Assembly (NCBI RefSeq): GCF_009911265.1
Contig: NZ_QXXA01000009.1
Location: 1 to 64,000, forward strand
Direction of reading: 5' to 3'
From: Senegalia massiliensis
GTDB taxonomy: Bacteria > Bacillota > Clostridia > Tissierellales > SIT17
Length of the DNA stretch: 64,000 nucleotides
Under the pieces are notes generated by a model. The model was not told the DNA's origin, did not search any database, and saw only the letters and a list, made by a program, of their open reading frames with translations. Shown here in pieces: positions 3,010 to 10,623 of this stretch (position 1 is its first letter; every line of letters starts with the position of its first letter). A program made the translations under genes and the position numbers.

Positions 3010-4668
3010 TTAGAATTTGTATTCTAAATCTAAATCATCTGAAATTATTGTTAGTTCTCCTAGTTTTATTTTTTTATCTATTTCTGTTGTAATATATTCT
3101 ACTTTAGTTTTTAAAGATCTTATTTCCTTAAATAAATCTTTGAGATTTAAAATACCTCTATCTTTATCCCCATATTTATCAAAGAAAAATTGGATCATAT
3201 ATATTGTAATCATATGCATATTTTCTAAGTGAAGTTGATTTCTTTTATCGACTCCTATATATAGGATATCTGGTGATTCTTTGATTTCTCTGACTCTCTT
3301 ATTGTTATCAAAAATATAATATATATTTTTTCTTTCTCTCAAGAATTTCTTATGTTTACTAATCTGTTTTTTAAAAATTTTATTGACAGTGCTTTGAATT
3401 TTTACATGATTTTTGTCTATTTCATTAATATAATGATTATCCTTCCACTTACATTCTATTATAAGTAATTTATTGTGTAAGACATCATACAAAGCAATAT
3501 CAATATCACTTTTTATTTTAGCTTTATCATACATAAATTCATAATATTTTTCTTTGCTAATAACAATATTATTATAAAATTTAACCTTATTAATCATATT
3601 ATCTATTACTGTTTTTGAAACTGTATTATCTCTTTTAATAAAATCAATTTTCTTTCTATAATGACCATTTGCTAAGTTAAAATGAAAATCATTCAACTGT
3701 AATAATGAAGGAATTGTCACTATTTTATTTTTAACATTTATTAATGGAAATTCTATAATACTACCTTTACCTCTAAATGTAAGAAATTCTATGTGGTTTG
3801 TAATTATATGATTGCTTAACATTGTTATTTTTCCAATCTTATTAATTAGCCATTGCTTGTCATAAGACATTAAATAATCCTCTGGTGTAATAGTTTTCTT
3901 CATTTCTACGGAACTATATAACATATTTCTTATTCTTTTTATAAAAGATAGATAATACAAAAATCCAATTACTTTTTTCGTATCCTCAATTTTATTAATA
4001 ACTTTACTTTTTGTTTTTTCACCTAACTTTTTTATATCCTTATACACTAAACTATTACAATGTTCTAACATCTCTTCATCAATATCTATTATAAGTCTAT
4101 CTAATTTTTTTAAATCTTTACGCTTCTTTGGAAGATACTTAAGAGTATACTTTTCTAATCCATCTATAATCATCTTTTGCTCCTTATTAAACTCTTCTTG
4201 TGCGTTGAATCCATGATAGTAGAACACTTCTTCTTTATATTTATTAGTTACTAATGAAGTTATTAATCGATAGCTATTTTTACTTTCTTTTTTTAACTCA
4301 CTCTTAGCAAATGAATTTCCATCTTTTATTTCCTGTAACACTCTGAAATCTTGCATAATAGATCTTAAAATAGGATACTTCTTATTCCTATAATTATTGT
4401 AATCACCTTTATTAACTTCTATATTTAGTTTCTTATCTTTGATATAATCATAAGCATTATGTAATAGCAATGATATAGTATACCTTTTTAAATAATTATT
4501 AATGTTTGCTGGATTAGACTCTTCATAACTCATTTCTAAATCAAGTAATGGATAAATAACTAAATTTCTAATATTATCTCCATATTTTCTAATATAATCT
4601 TCAAATCCTTCATCTATAATGTTCTCTACATGGCTAATTAATTTCCCTCTTAATTCATACTCATTCAA
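3010..4668 (-). CDS. Large protein with a PD-(D/E)xK nuclease-like core, 552 aa
   Basis: The start is a TTG at 4668 with an upstream AGAGGGG. Near the C-terminal third the pattern DIALYD, then a hydrophobic strand LLIIECKWK, gives D390, E405 and K407. This is the arrangement of a restriction-endonuclease-like (PD-(D/E)xK) active site. The N-terminal ~370 residues are charged and helical, match no family I recognise, and may recognise the target or sense something. A polytopic membrane protein gene follows on the same strand. Nuclease activity is inferred from the motif only. A nuclease next to a membrane protein inside an island fits a defence role. Confidence 0.7.
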   Translation of the reverse strand: MNEYELRGKLISHVENIIDEGFEDYIRKYGDNIRNLVIYPLLDLEMSYEESNPANINNYLKRYTISLLLHNAYDYIKDKKLNIEVNKGDYNNYRNKKYPILRSIMQDFRVLQEIKDGNSFAKSELKKESKNSYRLITSLVTNKYKEEVFYYHGFNAQEEFNKEQKMIIDGLEKYTLKYLPKKRKDLKKLDRLIIDIDEEMLEHCNSLVYKDIKKLGEKTKSKVINKIEDTKKVIGFLYYLSFIKRIRNMLYSSVEMKKTITPEDYLMSYDKQWLINKIGKITMLSNHIITNHIEFLTFRGKGSIIEFPLINVKNKIVTIPSLLQLNDFHFNLANGHYRKKIDFIKRDNTVSKTVIDNMINKVKFYNNIVISKEKYYEFMYDKAKIKSDIDIALYDVLHNKLLIIECKWKDNHYINEIDKNHVKIQSTVNKIFKKQISKHKKFLRERKNIYYIFDNNKRVREIKESPDILYIGVDKRNQLHLENMHMITIYMIQFFFDKYGDKDRGILNLKDLFKEIRSLKTKVEYITTEIDKKIKLGELTIISDDLDLEYKF

Positions 4669-5141
4669 TTTAATCCCCTCTCTAAGTTTGTGATCATTTA
4701 ATATTTATTTAAGCAATAAGCATAACAACATATTATCAATCTTTTATTTCATAATTTGCTATTATATTTAAAGATTAAAGAATTTTAGCTAACAAATATT
4801 TATCCTCTTTTTTGTAAAGGTTTTCCTGCGTTCGATATAATTCTATCTACTCCCTTACAATCACTATATACTTATGGATATATTTTCTATTTGTTCAAGC
4901 TATACTTATTTTAACATATCTAATATTTATTTGGTACTATAAATGTCAATAAATGTAGAACTTAGTAATCAAATAAATATAATTACTTGTCTATAGGTAA
5001 CTTTTCTTATATTTTTTATTTATTCGACAAGTATCGACTAACTTTTTAAATACTTTAGGTTATAATATATTTACTATGCATGAAAACATTTCAGAATATG
5101 ATAATAAACCAGTGCAAGGTAATCTTAAAGGAGGGATATTT
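4669..5141. other. Divergent intergenic region, 473 bp
   Basis: This gene-free, very A+T-rich stretch separates the minus-strand nuclease-like gene from the plus-strand basic-protein/PRTase/DprA-like cluster. On the plus strand a perfect TATAAT lies at 5061-5066 without a recognisable -35. Upstream of it are two direct TCGAC repeats at 5024-5028 and 5034-5038, one helical turn apart. No RNA gene or good open frame is visible. Confidence 0.5.
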
Positions 5142-5351
5142 ATGAAGGTTGGATTTAGAAAACCATCTATTAAAAAGTCTATTAAAGCTAGGACAACTGG
5201 TAAGGTAAAACGTAAGATTAAATCTTCCATAGATCCTACGTATGGCAAGAAAGGAATGGGCTGGGTAAAGAATCCTAAGAAAGCTGCTTATAATAAAGTT
5301 TATAAGAAAACAACTTTTGGACTAAGTGATTTATTTAAACTATTTAAGTAA
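5142..5351 (+). CDS. Small basic hypothetical protein, 69 aa
   Basis: The ATG at 5142 follows a perfect AAAGGAGG by seven bases; the frame is open 22 codons further upstream but without a ribosome site. The protein is extremely Lys/Arg-rich, with the segments FRKPSIKKSIKARTTGK and YGKKGMGW. I recall similar small basic proteins in Firmicute phage and island contexts, always hypothetical. The charge suggests nucleic-acid binding. It ends 17 bases before the HAD-PRTase gene and is probably co-transcribed with it. Confidence 0.75.
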   Translation: MKVGFRKPSIKKSIKARTTGKVKRKIKSSIDPTYGKKGMGWVKNPKKAAYNKVYKKTTFGLSDLFKLFK

Positions 5352-5368
5352 ACTAAGGAGGATGTAAA

Positions 5369-6538
5369 ATGAATAAAATATTATTAATTTCATTAGACGT
5401 AATTGATGATTTAAATCATCAACCTTTATTCAAAGACTTTTGTGATTGTTTAAATACAATTATAGAAGAAAAAAATGCAGTTGGTTTTGTAAGTAGATTA
5501 CCTTCAAGAGTAAAAGAAGCAAAAGAAAAGTATGGAGGTATAAATAAATCTTATCATTTTATAACAAGGCAAAAGGCTAAAAAAATGATTAAAGAGCATG
5601 GGAAGAGTTATTTTATATTTTTAGGAAATAGAGATGTTGATTTTTATACAGCAGTTAATGCAAAGATGTTGTTTCTAATTCCAACATGGGTTCGAGAAAC
5701 TGACTATAAAGCTAGAAGATATGGTTTGGAAATAGACAATAGCAAAGAATTACTAGAAATAGTTAGAACAGCTAATAATCAAAACTTTTGGTATGCTTAT
5801 AAGGAATTAGAAGATGGTTCTATAGTAATGTCTTTAATGGATGGGGCTTATAGAGCATATTCTAAATCTGATACAGAAAGAATTTTAATTAAAAAATTTG
5901 AAGAAGTTTTAAAGCAAGGAAACAGAAATACTTTTTTTGAAATACTTTTATACCACTTTTTATCTGCTATTTCTAATGATAATACTTTATTCAGTGATGT
6001 CACTATATGGGGGATATTCCCTTCATCCACAAATAAGTTAAATTCAGAAATGCTTCACTTTAAAGAAACAGTCAGAGAGATGATGAAGTGTCAAGAACCT
6101 CGTAATTTAGATATTCATAATAAAAATGTTTTATTGAGACATACTCCCGTTAAAAAAAGTCAGCATACAAAAGGTAATATTAGATATAAAGATGGGTCTG
6201 ACAAACATTTAAACTCAATATATGTAAATCCGAAATTCAAAAAGAAATTAAAAAATGCTACAGTTTGTATATTTGATGATTTTCTTAACTATGGCAATTC
6301 ATTTGAAACAGCGAGAAACTTGTTGAAAAAAGCTGGAGCTAAAAAAGTTATTTTTGTTGCTTTAGGGAAGTTCAGAAAACCGTATATATATCAAGATTAT
6401 GATATAGAAGGTGATGTAACTACAGATTATTTTAATTTTGAATTAATTAATAGATACGACATCTCTCATCTGTCTTTTGAAATAAATGATGAAGCTAAAA
6501 ATGAAGTTGAAAATTTGCATAAAATATTCAATCTTTAG
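5369..6538 (+). CDS. HAD-like plus phosphoribosyltransferase-like protein, 389 aa
   Basis: The C-terminal part (about 285-350) has a type I phosphoribosyltransferase PRPP loop, FDDFLNYGNSFETA, with the acidic pair D303-D304, followed by a strand and helix as in ComF/Apt folds. The N-terminal half resembles a HAD-like fold: hydrophobic strand ILLISLD at the start, GFVSR near 40, then FLGNRDVDFYTAVNAKM near 85-100. The nucleophile motif is degenerate. A strong SD (AAGGAGG) precedes the ATG. The next gene is a DprA/SLOG-family protein, and PRTase plus DprA-like pairs are to my recollection a recurring predicted conflict module. A substrate cannot be deduced. Confidence 0.75.
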   Translation: MNKILLISLDVIDDLNHQPLFKDFCDCLNTIIEEKNAVGFVSRLPSRVKEAKEKYGGINKSYHFITRQKAKKMIKEHGKSYFIFLGNRDVDFYTAVNAKMLFLIPTWVRETDYKARRYGLEIDNSKELLEIVRTANNQNFWYAYKELEDGSIVMSLMDGAYRAYSKSDTERILIKKFEEVLKQGNRNTFFEILLYHFLSAISNDNTLFSDVTIWGIFPSSTNKLNSEMLHFKETVREMMKCQEPRNLDIHNKNVLLRHTPVKKSQHTKGNIRYKDGSDKHLNSIYVNPKFKKKLKNATVCIFDDFLNYGNSFETARNLLKKAGAKKVIFVALGKFRKPYIYQDYDIEGDVTTDYFNFELINRYDISHLSFEINDEAKNEVENLHKIFNL

Positions 6539-6588
6539 CCTCTTAGCCGAATATTTAGTATATAATAGTATTTAAGGGGTGAAGTAAT

Positions 6589-7743
6589 ATGAACAAATAT
6601 CTAATTGCTCTAAAAGAATTAAAAGTTAATAATGAACTTATATTGAAAATGCTAAAGATCTTTCAATTGATTGATTTCAAGCTTTTATTTGAAGGTAAAT
6701 ATTTAGATATTGAATTTAAACATAATATAAAATTTGATAAATATGCTAATACATTTAGTGATGTACCTAAACTTAATGATGCAATTAAAAAGGCTAAAGA
6801 AATTATAGCTCTTAGCAAAGAAAATAAAATAAAAATTACAAATATAAAAGATAAAAAATATCCTTATAATTTAAAATTAATAGATAACCCTCCTGCAATT
6901 CTTTACTATAAAGGAAGAGCTTTTTATAAAAAGCATAGAAAAAGTATTGCATGTGTAGGTACAAGATCTATAACTAGTTTTGGTATTAATGCATCAGAAG
7001 CGATTATACCAAGTTTAGTAAAAGAAGGTTTTACCATAATAAGTGGTTTAGCTATTGGTATTGATACAGTCTCCCATAAAATATGCTTAGACAATGGGGG
7101 TACTGCTATAGCAGTTTTAGCACATGGATTAGATGCAATATATCCAAAAAGCAATAAAGACCTATACAATAGAATTTTAGAAAATAATGGTTTAGTAGTT
7201 AGTGAATATCCTATTGGAACTAAACCAGATAAATTTAGATTTGTAGAAAGAAATAGATTAGTAAGTGGCTTGTCTAAAGGTACTATAGTATTTGAGACAA
7301 AAGAAAAAAGTGGAACTATGCATACTGTAAATTACACACTTGAACAAGATAAACCCGTTTTTTGTCCTTTACCTCAAGAAGCAGGATTGACTACTACAGC
7401 ATTAATTAAATTAATTCAACAAGGCAAAGCAATTAGCATTCCTTCTCAAAATGCTTTTGAAAGAGTTGTTTTAGGTACAGGATATAAAATAAAAGACAAA
7501 GATAAAGTTAATAAATTAAAAAAGAAATCTGCTTCTAATATCATAAATTCTTCTAAAATTGATTATAAAGAACTAGATAAAGCCTTTAATTTTGATGAAA
7601 AGAAGTATTCAGGAATTAGAGTTGATAAAGATTTATATTTAAAGTATAGAGAAGTTCTTAAAGAGAATAACTTGACAAATAAAGAAATGTTTAATGCATT
7701 TATGCTATCTGTTATTAATAGTAATTCAAGCAATAAAAAATAA
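6589..7743 (+). CDS. DprA/Smf-like (SLOG fold) protein of the island, 384 aa
   Basis: The central Rossmann-like domain (about 115-290) carries DprA family motifs in order: CVGTRSITSFG, IISGLAIGIDTVSH, GTAIAVLAHGLDAIYP, SEYPIGTKP, FVERNRLVSGLS and EKSGTMHTVNYTLEQ. In bona fide DprA this domain binds single-stranded DNA and loads RecA. Here the C-terminus lacks the usual winged helix and ends instead in a Lys-rich linker and a short helical segment. It follows the PRTase gene by 50 bases on the same strand and precedes the recombinase. It is more likely an island-specific nucleotide or DNA sensor than the host transformation DprA, which is expected beyond comM outside the window. Confidence 0.85.
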   Translation: MNKYLIALKELKVNNELILKMLKIFQLIDFKLLFEGKYLDIEFKHNIKFDKYANTFSDVPKLNDAIKKAKEIIALSKENKIKITNIKDKKYPYNLKLIDNPPAILYYKGRAFYKKHRKSIACVGTRSITSFGINASEAIIPSLVKEGFTIISGLAIGIDTVSHKICLDNGGTAIAVLAHGLDAIYPKSNKDLYNRILENNGLVVSEYPIGTKPDKFRFVERNRLVSGLSKGTIVFETKEKSGTMHTVNYTLEQDKPVFCPLPQEAGLTTTALIKLIQQGKAISIPSQNAFERVVLGTGYKIKDKDKVNKLKKKSASNIINSSKIDYKELDKAFNFDEKKYSGIRVDKDLYLKYREVLKENNLTNKEMFNAFMLSVINSNSSNKK

Positions 7744-7811: not shown

Positions 7812-9494
7812 ATGACTACTGCTGCAATATATGCACGTAAAAGTAAAGCAACAGATAAAGGAGAATCAACAGAAAATCAAATAAATAGAGGTATATCTTT
7901 ATGTAAGCTTCGTGGATGGGACTATACTATATATGAAGATTATGATGTATCGGGGAAAACATTAGATAGACCTGAGTTTACTAAAATGATGAAAGATGCC
8001 CATGAAGGTAAAATTAATAATATTATATGTTATAAACTTGATAGGATATCCAGAAGTGTTAATGACTTCTCTAATTTAATAGAGGAACTTAATTCTATTG
8101 ATGTAGGATTTGTATGTATTAAAGACAACTTTGACACTTCTACGCCAATGGGTAGAGCCATGATGTATATTACCAGTGTGTTCGCTCAACTTGAACGTGA
8201 AACCATAGCTGAACGTGTAAAAGATAATATGGTGGATCGTGCAAAAATGGGAAAATGGAATGGTGGGCCTATTCCCTATGGTTTTGATACTGAGAAAAAG
8301 AAAATAAACTATAAAGGTAAAGATAAAAAAATATCTAAATTAATAATAGATGAAAAACAAGCTGCAATAATAAAAGAATTTTATCAATGGTATTTAGAAT
8401 CAGATGGATCTATAAGAAATAATGTAGTAAGAGCAAATGAAAAAGGATATAGGACAAGCAATAATGCTTATTGGAGTCATAACCAGATGTCTAGATTGCT
8501 CCAAAATCCTTTATATTGTATTGCAGATGATAATGCTTATACTTACTTTAAAAACTCAACACAAGTAGATATAGTAAATGATAAAGAGGAATATAATGGT
8601 GAACATGGTCTTATGTTTTATAATAGAAGAAAACAACATAAAAAAACATCCAAACAAAGGGATGAACAAGATTGGATTCTTACTATTGGTGAACATGAAG
8701 GTTTTATTCCAGGAGAAATATTTACTAAGGTACAAAGAAAATTAAATCTAAATAAAAATAAAGCACCACGTTCTGGCCAAAGTGAAAGATCTCCTTTAGT
8801 TGGGCTTATTAAATGTGGTAGATGTGGATCTAGTATGAGTGTATTTGCTGCACCTAAAACTACAGGTGATGGTAATAAAAAGTATTACTACTATTTTAGA
8901 TGTTTGACTCGTGAACAAAAATCAAAGACTCTATGTGATAATAAAAACATAAGAGCTGATATATTAGAGGACCAAGTTATAGAGTATATAAGCAAAATTG
9001 GAGAAAATCCTGATGTTATAAATGAAATCTTTGAGAAAGCAAACAATAAAATTGATGATAATAGGATACCTTTAATAGCTAAAAGAAATGAACTACAAAA
9101 ACAAGTAGATGAAATTGAAACTAAAATAGATAATTTAGTTGATGCTTTAAGTTCTGATGCACTTCCCCAAATTGTTATTAAGAAAAGATATAAAAAATTA
9201 GAGCAAGAAAAAGAAGATTTATTGAAAGATATAAGTTCTATTAATTTTGAGCTGGATAATAATACTCAGGAAAATATTAACCTGGATAAAGTAAAAGAGT
9301 ATCTATTAGATTTCAAAAACACCTATGAGTATTTAGATGTGAATGAGAAAAGAAAGATGTTGCAATCTATAATTAAAGAAATTAAAATTGATAGAGAAAA
9401 AGTTTTTATGAAGCTATATTTTGACATTCAAGATGAGGACGAACAAGCTTTTTGCTTACGCAAGGACATGGATTCATACTTGCAACAAGCATGA
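7812..9494 (+). CDS. Large serine recombinase (integrase) of the comM island, 560 aa
   Basis: The N-terminal resolvase domain begins AAIYARKS with catalytic S11 and continues through [13 protein letters not shown] and [16 protein letters not shown]. The middle is a recombinase domain (GPIPYGFD, then a helical DNA-binding part). It is followed by a zinc ribbon (KCGRCG and two later Cys near 375-395) and a coiled coil near 420-500, the standard layout of large serine integrases. SD is AAAGGAAG. The last eleven codons ([11 protein letters not shown]) and the stop lie in DNA that is the complement of comM, so the gene spans the attachment site. It would catalyse integration into, and with a directionality factor excision from, comM. 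Confidence 0.95.
9445..9475. other. Attachment junction (island/comM boundary)
   Basis: comM-like coding (minus strand) is intact up to its MNPCPC codons, whose last codon is 9460-9462, and then changes to unrelated sequence with a stop at 9406. In the family a Gly follows this Cys, so the crossover lies at or next to 9459. A small imperfect palindrome TTGC-TTAC-GCAA sits at 9452-9463. The exact core dinucleotide needs the other end of the island, which is outside the window. Confidence 0.75.
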
Positions 9495-10515
9495 AATTTG
9501 ATGGATATGTATAAGTAGCATTCACTCTAGATATTGTCACTACATTATCTTCCATAGGCTGACGCAATACTTCTAATGTTGATTTTCCAAATTCAGGTAA
9601 TTCATCTAAAAATAATACACCATAATGCGATAAAGAAACTTCTCCTGGTGAAGGTATTCTTCCTCCACCTACTAAAGATACTCTTGATATAGTATGATGA
9701 GGAGCTCTAAATGGTCTTTTTTCTATAAGTCCAATACCCTTTTCTAGACCTGCTATGCTATAAATTTTAGTCACTTCTAGTGCTTCTTTAAAAGACATCT
9801 TAGGTAAAATTGTTGGAAGTCTTTTGGCAATCATTGTTTTTCCAGATCCAGGAGGGCCAATAATTAATATATTATGTCCTCCTGCAGCTGCAACTTCCAT
9901 TGCTCTTTTTAATGTTTCTTGTCCTTTAATATCTTTAAAATCATAAAATGAATCTTCTTTCTTTCTATCATTTATTTTAGTAGTTTTCCAAGGTTTAATG
10001 TTTTCTAATCCATTTAAATAATTAACTAATTGTTTTAAATTTTTAATAGGTATTATTTCTATATCTTTTACAACACCACATTCTTCTTTATTGTCAAATG
10101 GTATAATCACCTTTTTTATTCCAAGAGAAATAAGTGAAATAATCATTGGTAAAGCTCCATCAATTTTAGTTACTTCTCCATCTAATGCTAATTCTCCAAT
10201 AAAACATGTATTAGATAAATCATCTTCATTTATAATACCCATACATTTTAATATTCCTGAAGCTATAGCTAAATCCATTTGCGATCCTTCTTTTCTTGTA
10301 TTTGCAGGGGATAAATTTATTGTAATTCTACTTAGTGGAAACTTAAATCCACTATTATTTATAGCAGTTCTCACTCTATCTTTAGATTCTTTTATCGATG
10401 CATCAGGTAATCCTACAATATTAAAACTTGGCATTCCATTTGATAAATCTGTTTCAACTTCTACAATATTTCCATTTAATCCTTGAAGTACACATGTTTT
10501 TGTTTTTGATAGCAT
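9460..10515 (-). pseudogene. comM: comM (YifB, Mg-chelatase-like ATPase), 5' part cut by the island
   Basis: The intact 352 codons start at the ATG at 10515 (SD AAAGGAG eight bases upstream). They contain the N-terminal Lon-protease-like S5 fold domain ([10 protein letters not shown]), Walker A GPPGSGKT, Walker [10 protein letters not shown] and the block MNPCPC. ComM family members are about 500 residues, so the last ~150 residues, including the C-terminal Mg_chelatase_C domain, are missing. Seventeen foreign codons follow to a stop at 9406. ComM is a hexameric helicase that promotes branch migration during transformation; this fragment cannot be functional unless the island excises. It has no terminator at its new end. 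Confidence 0.93.
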
Positions 10516-10623
10516 TTTCAAATCTCCTTTTAATCATATACATCTATAATTCAATAAATTCTTAAAAATTCCTTTTTTTATTTTTGTAATTTTAATATCA
10601 ATTATGATAAGCTTAATTATGAT

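Follow-up and report, generated by a model that had tools for sequence, protein, structure and literature searches.

The closest described relatives of the locus are two-gene systems that join a phosphoribosyltransferase (PRTase) to a relative of DprA. According to passages of PMC9122126, one such DprA-PRTase pair protects Escherichia coli against phages T7 and lambda, and the parts of a review (PMC12593503) that deal with ShosTA describe a toxin-antitoxin pair whose action runs through purine metabolism and DNA damage: as reported there from Pu et al. 2025, ShosT works as both PRTase and pyrophosphatase and upsets purine metabolism, ShosA binds DNA and counteracts ShosT, and T7 Gp0.7 is a trigger. 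Passages of PMC10732053 list ShosTA among the systems activated by a Gp32-like SSB and suggest that protein-DNA complexes arising as phages replicate may be what it responds to. PsyrTA and RqlHI likewise combine a PRTase toxin domain with a DprA-like antitoxin, and the related PRTase domain of RqlH is genotoxic without its DprA relative RqlI (as stated in part of PMC4670107).

The window, a 64,000-nucleotide stretch of Senegalia massiliensis (assembly GCF_009911265.1, contig NZ_QXXA01000009.1, positions 1 to 64,000), carries near its start the three open reading frames (ORFs) and the gaps that a first-pass annotation had delimited, with 17 bp between a small leader ORF and the PRTase gene and 50 bp between the PRTase gene and the DprA-like gene, all on the same strand (Table 1). 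The PRTase and DprA-like genes very probably constitute an anti-phage toxin-antitoxin system of the ShosTA type, which a serine-recombinase element inserted in comM carries as cargo. The locus adds an ordinary but well-supported case to ShosTA, distinguished by a variant tail on the antitoxin. The first-pass annotation had proposed a PRTase and DprA-like pair of the phage-conflict kind, and the pair does correspond to a named system in PADLOC and the PDB; the accompanying idea of nucleotide second-messenger signalling does not agree with the toxin-antitoxin action, through purine metabolism and DNA damage, that those parts of the review describe.

Table 1. Features of the ShosTA locus and its surroundings (window coordinates).
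Feature	Position	Strand	Remarks
Upstream stretch of leader ORF, perhaps promoter region	4884..5075	+	92% identity over 192 bp to G000:C23:6252-6443
69-aa basic leader ORF	5142..5351	+	prophage-associated family; not a ShosTA component
Spacer, 17 bp, with ribosome-binding site AAGGAGG	5352..5368	+	common to the C23 leader copy
ShosT, 389 aa: HAD-like N-terminus (~residues 1-140) and C-terminal phosphoribosyltransferase domain	5369..6538	+	
PRPP loop of ShosT, FDDFLNYGNSFETA, residues 302-315	6272..6313	+	invariant residues in alignments A1 and A3
ShosA, 384 aa, DprA-like (SLOG) antitoxin	6589..7743	+	PADLOC, DNA_processg_A, pairing; PDB matches do not separate ShosA and plain DprA
ShosA C-terminal tail, ribbon-helix-helix-like, replaces winged helix	7609..7728	+	NF050811 E 0.012; predicted fold
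Large serine recombinase of the element	7812..9494	+	last codons in comM-derived DNA
Probable crossover core, ~8 bp, within comM	9461..9468	.	region covered by both junction alignments to intact comM
5' part of interrupted comM/yifB	9461..10521	-	

The first-pass annotation had left the PRTase and DprA-like proteins to be checked by HMM search, and PADLOC names them ShosT (PDLC03962, E 3.4e-42) and ShosA (PDLC03961, E 4.5e-82), with the second ShosT and ShosA models, followed by PsyrT/PsyrA, also matching at weaker scores; given these profile E-values, the assignment is not due to chance. When a profile built from eight ShosT homologues was compared with the PDB, three distinct sequences were matched at E <= 0.01, all of them ShosT or ShosT_PRPP (8zvb, 9w2p and 9w2q, about 2e-21), and the solved chains were matched along the N-terminal region and near the PRPP loop. 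Identity to the relatives is only 23-37%, and the Pfam Pribosyltran match is sub-threshold (22.8 bits, cut-off 26.3). The PRPP loop reported in the first pass is present, and the motif proved to be kept among homologues, a point on which that reading had been staked: D303, D304, G309, S311 and E313 are invariant in both A1 (7 sequences) and A3 (8 sequences), two alignments that overlap in the window ShosT and the relative L158. The ShosTA of E. coli and P2-like phages shares the ShosT-type PRPP loop, the N-terminal region and the adjacent DprA-like gene, but its solved ShosT chain is 432 aa long and has the loop DDF..EGNAHETAR, in which DD, G and E are kept and A replaces S311; the window further differs in its ribbon-helix-helix-like ShosA tail, its serine-recombinase element in comM and its prophage leader ORF. 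Unlike PsyrTA/RqlHI, the window ShosT has no RecQ helicase match, and the PsyrT match covers only residues 286-334.

The N-terminal ~140 residues of ShosT look HAD-derived, as had been suggested in the first pass, and this part of the suggestion gains from a motif-IV-like stretch (GNRDVDFYTA) and from a Hydrolase_6 match, below cut-off, in the N-terminus of the homologue L160 (E 0.0058), though not from Pfam, where the N-terminus of the window protein has no match. An active HAD domain did not hold up: at the aligned position of the motif-I nucleophile, Asp is absent from all eight ShosT homologues, which have S, A or P there, and phosphatase activity of this domain is therefore unlikely.

For ShosA, DNA_processg_A is a strong match (E 2.6e-66, residues 77-281) and the only one in Pfam at E <= 0.1, with no winged-helix match. 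The protein thus shares the DprA core domain with housekeeping DprA, of which a C-terminal winged-helix domain is typical, and the first-pass observation that RNR-x3-GLS and SGT are kept while the winged-helix tail is missing was confirmed (RNR-LVS-GLS and SGT). The NCBIfam model for plain DprA (TIGR00732) scores 212.3 bits, above its cut-off of 191.15, and the PDB ranking places plain DprA 3uqz first, followed by 8zva (named DprA) and 9vzo (named ShosA), with E-values of 1.9e-37 for 3uqz and 1.5e-29 for ShosA in the single-protein search and 2.1e-56 and 1.8e-54, respectively, in the profile search, a result weakened by the host's own DprA, which serves as outgroup in the profile (A2). Because the PDB slightly prefers plain DprA, the name ShosA rests on PADLOC and the partner gene; sequence alone could call the protein DprA. 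The entry number of 8zva adjoins those of the ShosT entries.

These DprA-like properties, a domain above the NCBIfam cut-off and nearer to 3uqz than to solved ShosA, together with the insertion in comM, next to the host's own dprA (see below), would also suit a competence or recombination pair made of a second DprA and a ComF-like PRTase. Such a pair is very improbable here, as the host has its dprA and a separate PRTase, in a frame of ~221 aa, elsewhere, and the window PRTase matches the ShosT models and solved ShosT, while ComF is reached only at E 0.07.

The assignment to ShosA leaves a C-terminal tail of ~45 residues, which has no Pfam match and a weak RelB/ParD match (NF050811, E 0.012, far below cut-off) and whose pattern, judged by eye and with this match, fits a ribbon-helix-helix unit. 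The tail is also found in Paenibacillus taichungensis (L161) and in a remnant in genome G209 (see below), and is missing from the other ten ShosA proteins aligned (L046 stands outside the alignment). ShosTA would thereby gain a variant antitoxin with a probable, predicted DNA-binding tail.

Related ShosT loci were examined at 13 places, six in opened plasmid records, two in viral contigs and five, all full length, in named genomes. The first-pass annotation had made co-occurrence of the pair outside this island a check, and a DprA-like gene adjoins ShosT on the same strand in 12 of the 13. The remaining locus, L158, is identical to L047 (G017) and starts at a contig edge 26 bp before ShosT, with no DprA gene downstream; the sole DprA match of that genome (39% identity), next to comM on a different contig, is probably the host's own. 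The dprA-like gene comes first in nine loci, from Bacilli and the two viral contigs, and ShosT comes first in L044 (Bacteroidota), L046 (Streptomyces), L162 (Flavobacteriales) and the window. Pairs on plasmids of Gram-positive bacteria (Lactobacillaceae, Staphylococcus saprophyticus) are full-length homologues with an adjacent DprA, but they have the dprA-like gene first and a tail-less ShosA that ends near residue 300. PHROG 27844/30500 match ShosT over its full length (2.2e-88) and ShosA including most of the tail (2.8e-114), but that library annotates no function for them and the phage collection gave no match to ShosT by tblastn; single-sequence scans for relatives of ShosT and ShosA found none. 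A retron with a PRTase effector was considered and rejected, there being no reverse-transcriptase match among the nine proteins scanned of an element that continues beyond the contig end.

Within the order, ShosT is rare, with a match at E <= 1e-5 in 3 of 249 genomes (own genome and the G209 remnant counted). A search with PDLC03962 across the phylum matched 391 of 398 genomes; since this model also catches common PRTases, the phylum count was not used as a distribution, and of 35 genome-contig loci, 30 (L163-L192) with PRTases of 270-305 aa scoring < 31 bits, presumably PurR-like, were set aside, leaving the full-length L158-L162. The G209 remnant is a 197-aa ORF (L048:5963-6556, G209:C5) in which ShosT residues 1-138 (50% identity) stand in frame with ShosA tail residues 318-380 (60%), either the remnant of an internal deletion or a retained mini-regulator, and it adjoins a 64%-identical recombinase in comM. 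This relative, without most of both proteins, indicates that the pair can be lost and is what would speak for a decayed system in the window as well; decay is improbable there, as both frames are intact and full length and the motif residues are conserved.

The element is integrated in comM, of which the N-terminal part lies on this contig and the C-terminal part on contig C16 of the same assembly, where the other element end is found (G000:C16 ~4125-4132). Both junctions match the uninterrupted comM of a genome of the same genus (G160) at 94-95% and overlap by 8 bp, an overlap also found on the intact comM of G155 and lengthened to 37 bp on that of the less similar G159, where the left alignment is longer. 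As the window starts at a contig end, the middle of the element lies outside the sequence examined. The gene is split at the same point in G209 and elsewhere along its length in G158, and unsplit in the four other genomes tested; the G158 insert holds a phage portal gene, and the portal model used there has no match in G209. Related recombinases of G209, G231 and G238 occupy the same comM site, with the slot beside the recombinase filled by the ShosT-ShosA remnant in G209 and by other genes in G231 and G238. The window locus extends ShosTA to a comM-integrating element. A further related recombinase, in G213, had no comM match in the stretch fetched. Beside the G238 recombinase lies a minus-strand cluster (L208:1164-5788) with a 549-aa protein and, by eye, a P-loop ATPase-like protein, possibly an unrelated defence cluster. 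In the window, the last recombinase codons (9461-9494) are read from comM DNA, and the C-terminus would therefore differ in the excised element. The 3' part of the split comM is immediately followed by the host's own dprA (L040:4644-5729, G000:C16), and a DprA relative has thus arrived with the island in the neighbourhood of dprA. Among the island proteins other than ShosTA, PADLOC matched nothing except HTH models for a regulator (L040:3691-4176).

The position of ShosTA beside a recombinase in a mobile element, and the presence of ShosT relatives in 34 of 72,556 plasmid records (six of the 34 opened), would also be expected of a module serving addiction alone, which would hold the element in the cell and have no role in phage defence in this host. 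This reading is rather unlikely; the protection of E. coli by a homologous DprA-PRTase pair (in the passages of PMC9122126 cited above) argues against it.

For the preferred reading, a ShosTA defence system, family identity, pairing, the PRPP loop, the integration site and leader sharing were observed, and the family is the model from which toxicity, neutralisation, defence and trigger would be carried over. ShosT would bind PRPP through its C-terminal PRTase domain and, if uncurbed, would upset purine nucleotides, cause DNA damage and stop the cell, while ShosA, as a DNA-binding DprA relative, would counteract it. The ribbon-helix-helix-like tail may add operator binding and hence autoregulation. 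Phage infection would disturb the balance of ShosT and ShosA so that the infected cell stops before phage release, and the pair may in addition counter loss of the element. The leader ORF would belong to the expression context of the element, outside the toxin mechanism.

An in-frame ATG at 5076 would lengthen the 69-aa leader to 91 aa; the start at 5142 is favoured because of the ribosome-binding site (AGGAGG) that precedes it and the conservation of the family. The first-pass annotation had noted this basic protein as tightly linked to the PRTase gene, and the short gap to ShosT, with possible translational coupling, would fit a three-gene system in which it is a needed third component, for example a DNA-binding partner. 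The comparison with relatives makes this highly implausible: no copy of the leader family was found at any of the other 13 ShosT loci (upstream sequence is informative at 11, as L158 and L194 start within 26 bp of the first gene), and the family is present in 50 of 248 genomes searched within the order, this one included, far beyond the distribution of ShosT, as well as in 90 of 50,697 phage records and 18 of 72,556 plasmid records, and it precedes unrelated genes elsewhere, including one in the same genome. The true ShosTA system is now separated from a small conserved prophage leader, itself a lead worth keeping.

The leader family has no Pfam or NCBIfam match and matches five PHROGs of unknown function, four over the whole leader at the model start and one partly; no description of it was found in the open-access literature, searched with family peptides and related wording. 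Of 102 matches examined, 71 stand alone (<=75 aa) and 31 are longer, with L049 and L149 being the same site. In 57 of 93 loci, one of the first two genes after the leader encodes an integrase or large serine recombinase; some of the other 36 loci end before the second gene, and 8 loci in which the leader is stored on the minus strand were excluded from the count. All 57 of these genes resemble integrases annotated in the opened phage records or the window recombinase, which is itself the third gene after the leader. In four annotated phages that were opened, the leader lies between repressor-type regulators and the integrase. Across 86 moderately diverged pairs, mean pS is 0.42 and mean pN 0.06, and the leader protein is under strong selection. 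A family member with 56% identity also appears in the annotation of a Citrobacter freundii plasmid (L199:3501-3713), in the midst of resistance-gene cassettes of a class 1 integron.

The second copy in the host genome (G000:C23:6821-7030) encodes a protein identical to the window leader, with synonymous changes only (pS 0.21, pN 0 over 69 codons), and the two share 96.4% DNA identity along 250 bp. This similarity starts at the ribosome-binding site and breaks off no more than three codons from where the next gene, an unrelated cargo, starts. The similar stretch farther upstream (Table 1) has a leader distance of 51 bp in the window and 362 bp on C23, with a differing stretch between; it may act as a promoter region, and a promoter-consensus scan gave 24 sites, no more than shuffled sequences (mean, 32.2). 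On C23, the cargo is a 401-aa protein with, by eye, membrane segments and an SNase-like region, followed by a tyrosine integrase; the cargo scans, which count family members without naming them, gave one SNase match among 56 proteins. The anatomy of the two copies is that of a shared leader with exchanged cargo. Swapping confined to the downstream side was rejected, since among 21 close leader pairs (pS <= 0.25; 93 loci cut to 77 by dropping near-identical ones) similarity is missing downstream in 5 and upstream in 11. Enrichment of the cargo in defence genes was also unsupported, with PADLOC matches in 6 of 18 cargo proteins (two of them weak, an HTH match and PtuB at E 0.0006) and in 4 of 18 controls from the same hand-picked loci (among them an HTH match and a TnpB-like match that was counted as Cas12f), L109 and L111 having been dropped beforehand for want of a usable control.

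Tentatively, the leader may represent an uncharacterised, strongly selected prophage family that stands alone before, or is N-terminally fused to, changing genes between repressor and integrase, in which a shared expression module and recombination anchor, formed by the conserved ORF or by the leader together with promoter and ribosome-binding site, would let temperate elements exchange lysogeny-expressed cargo, including ShosTA. The leader could mark lysogeny-expressed accessory genes in such elements.

Elsewhere near the locus, a 552-aa protein (3010-4668, minus strand) has IECKW, a PD-(D/E)xK-like motif by eye, and weak Card1/DUF234 matches, with no PADLOC or plasmid match. A dispersed repeat of 70-80 bp occurs at 690-768 and 1166-1235 and again on G000:C23 (~1363-1429 and ~4762-4842), at 82-91% identity.
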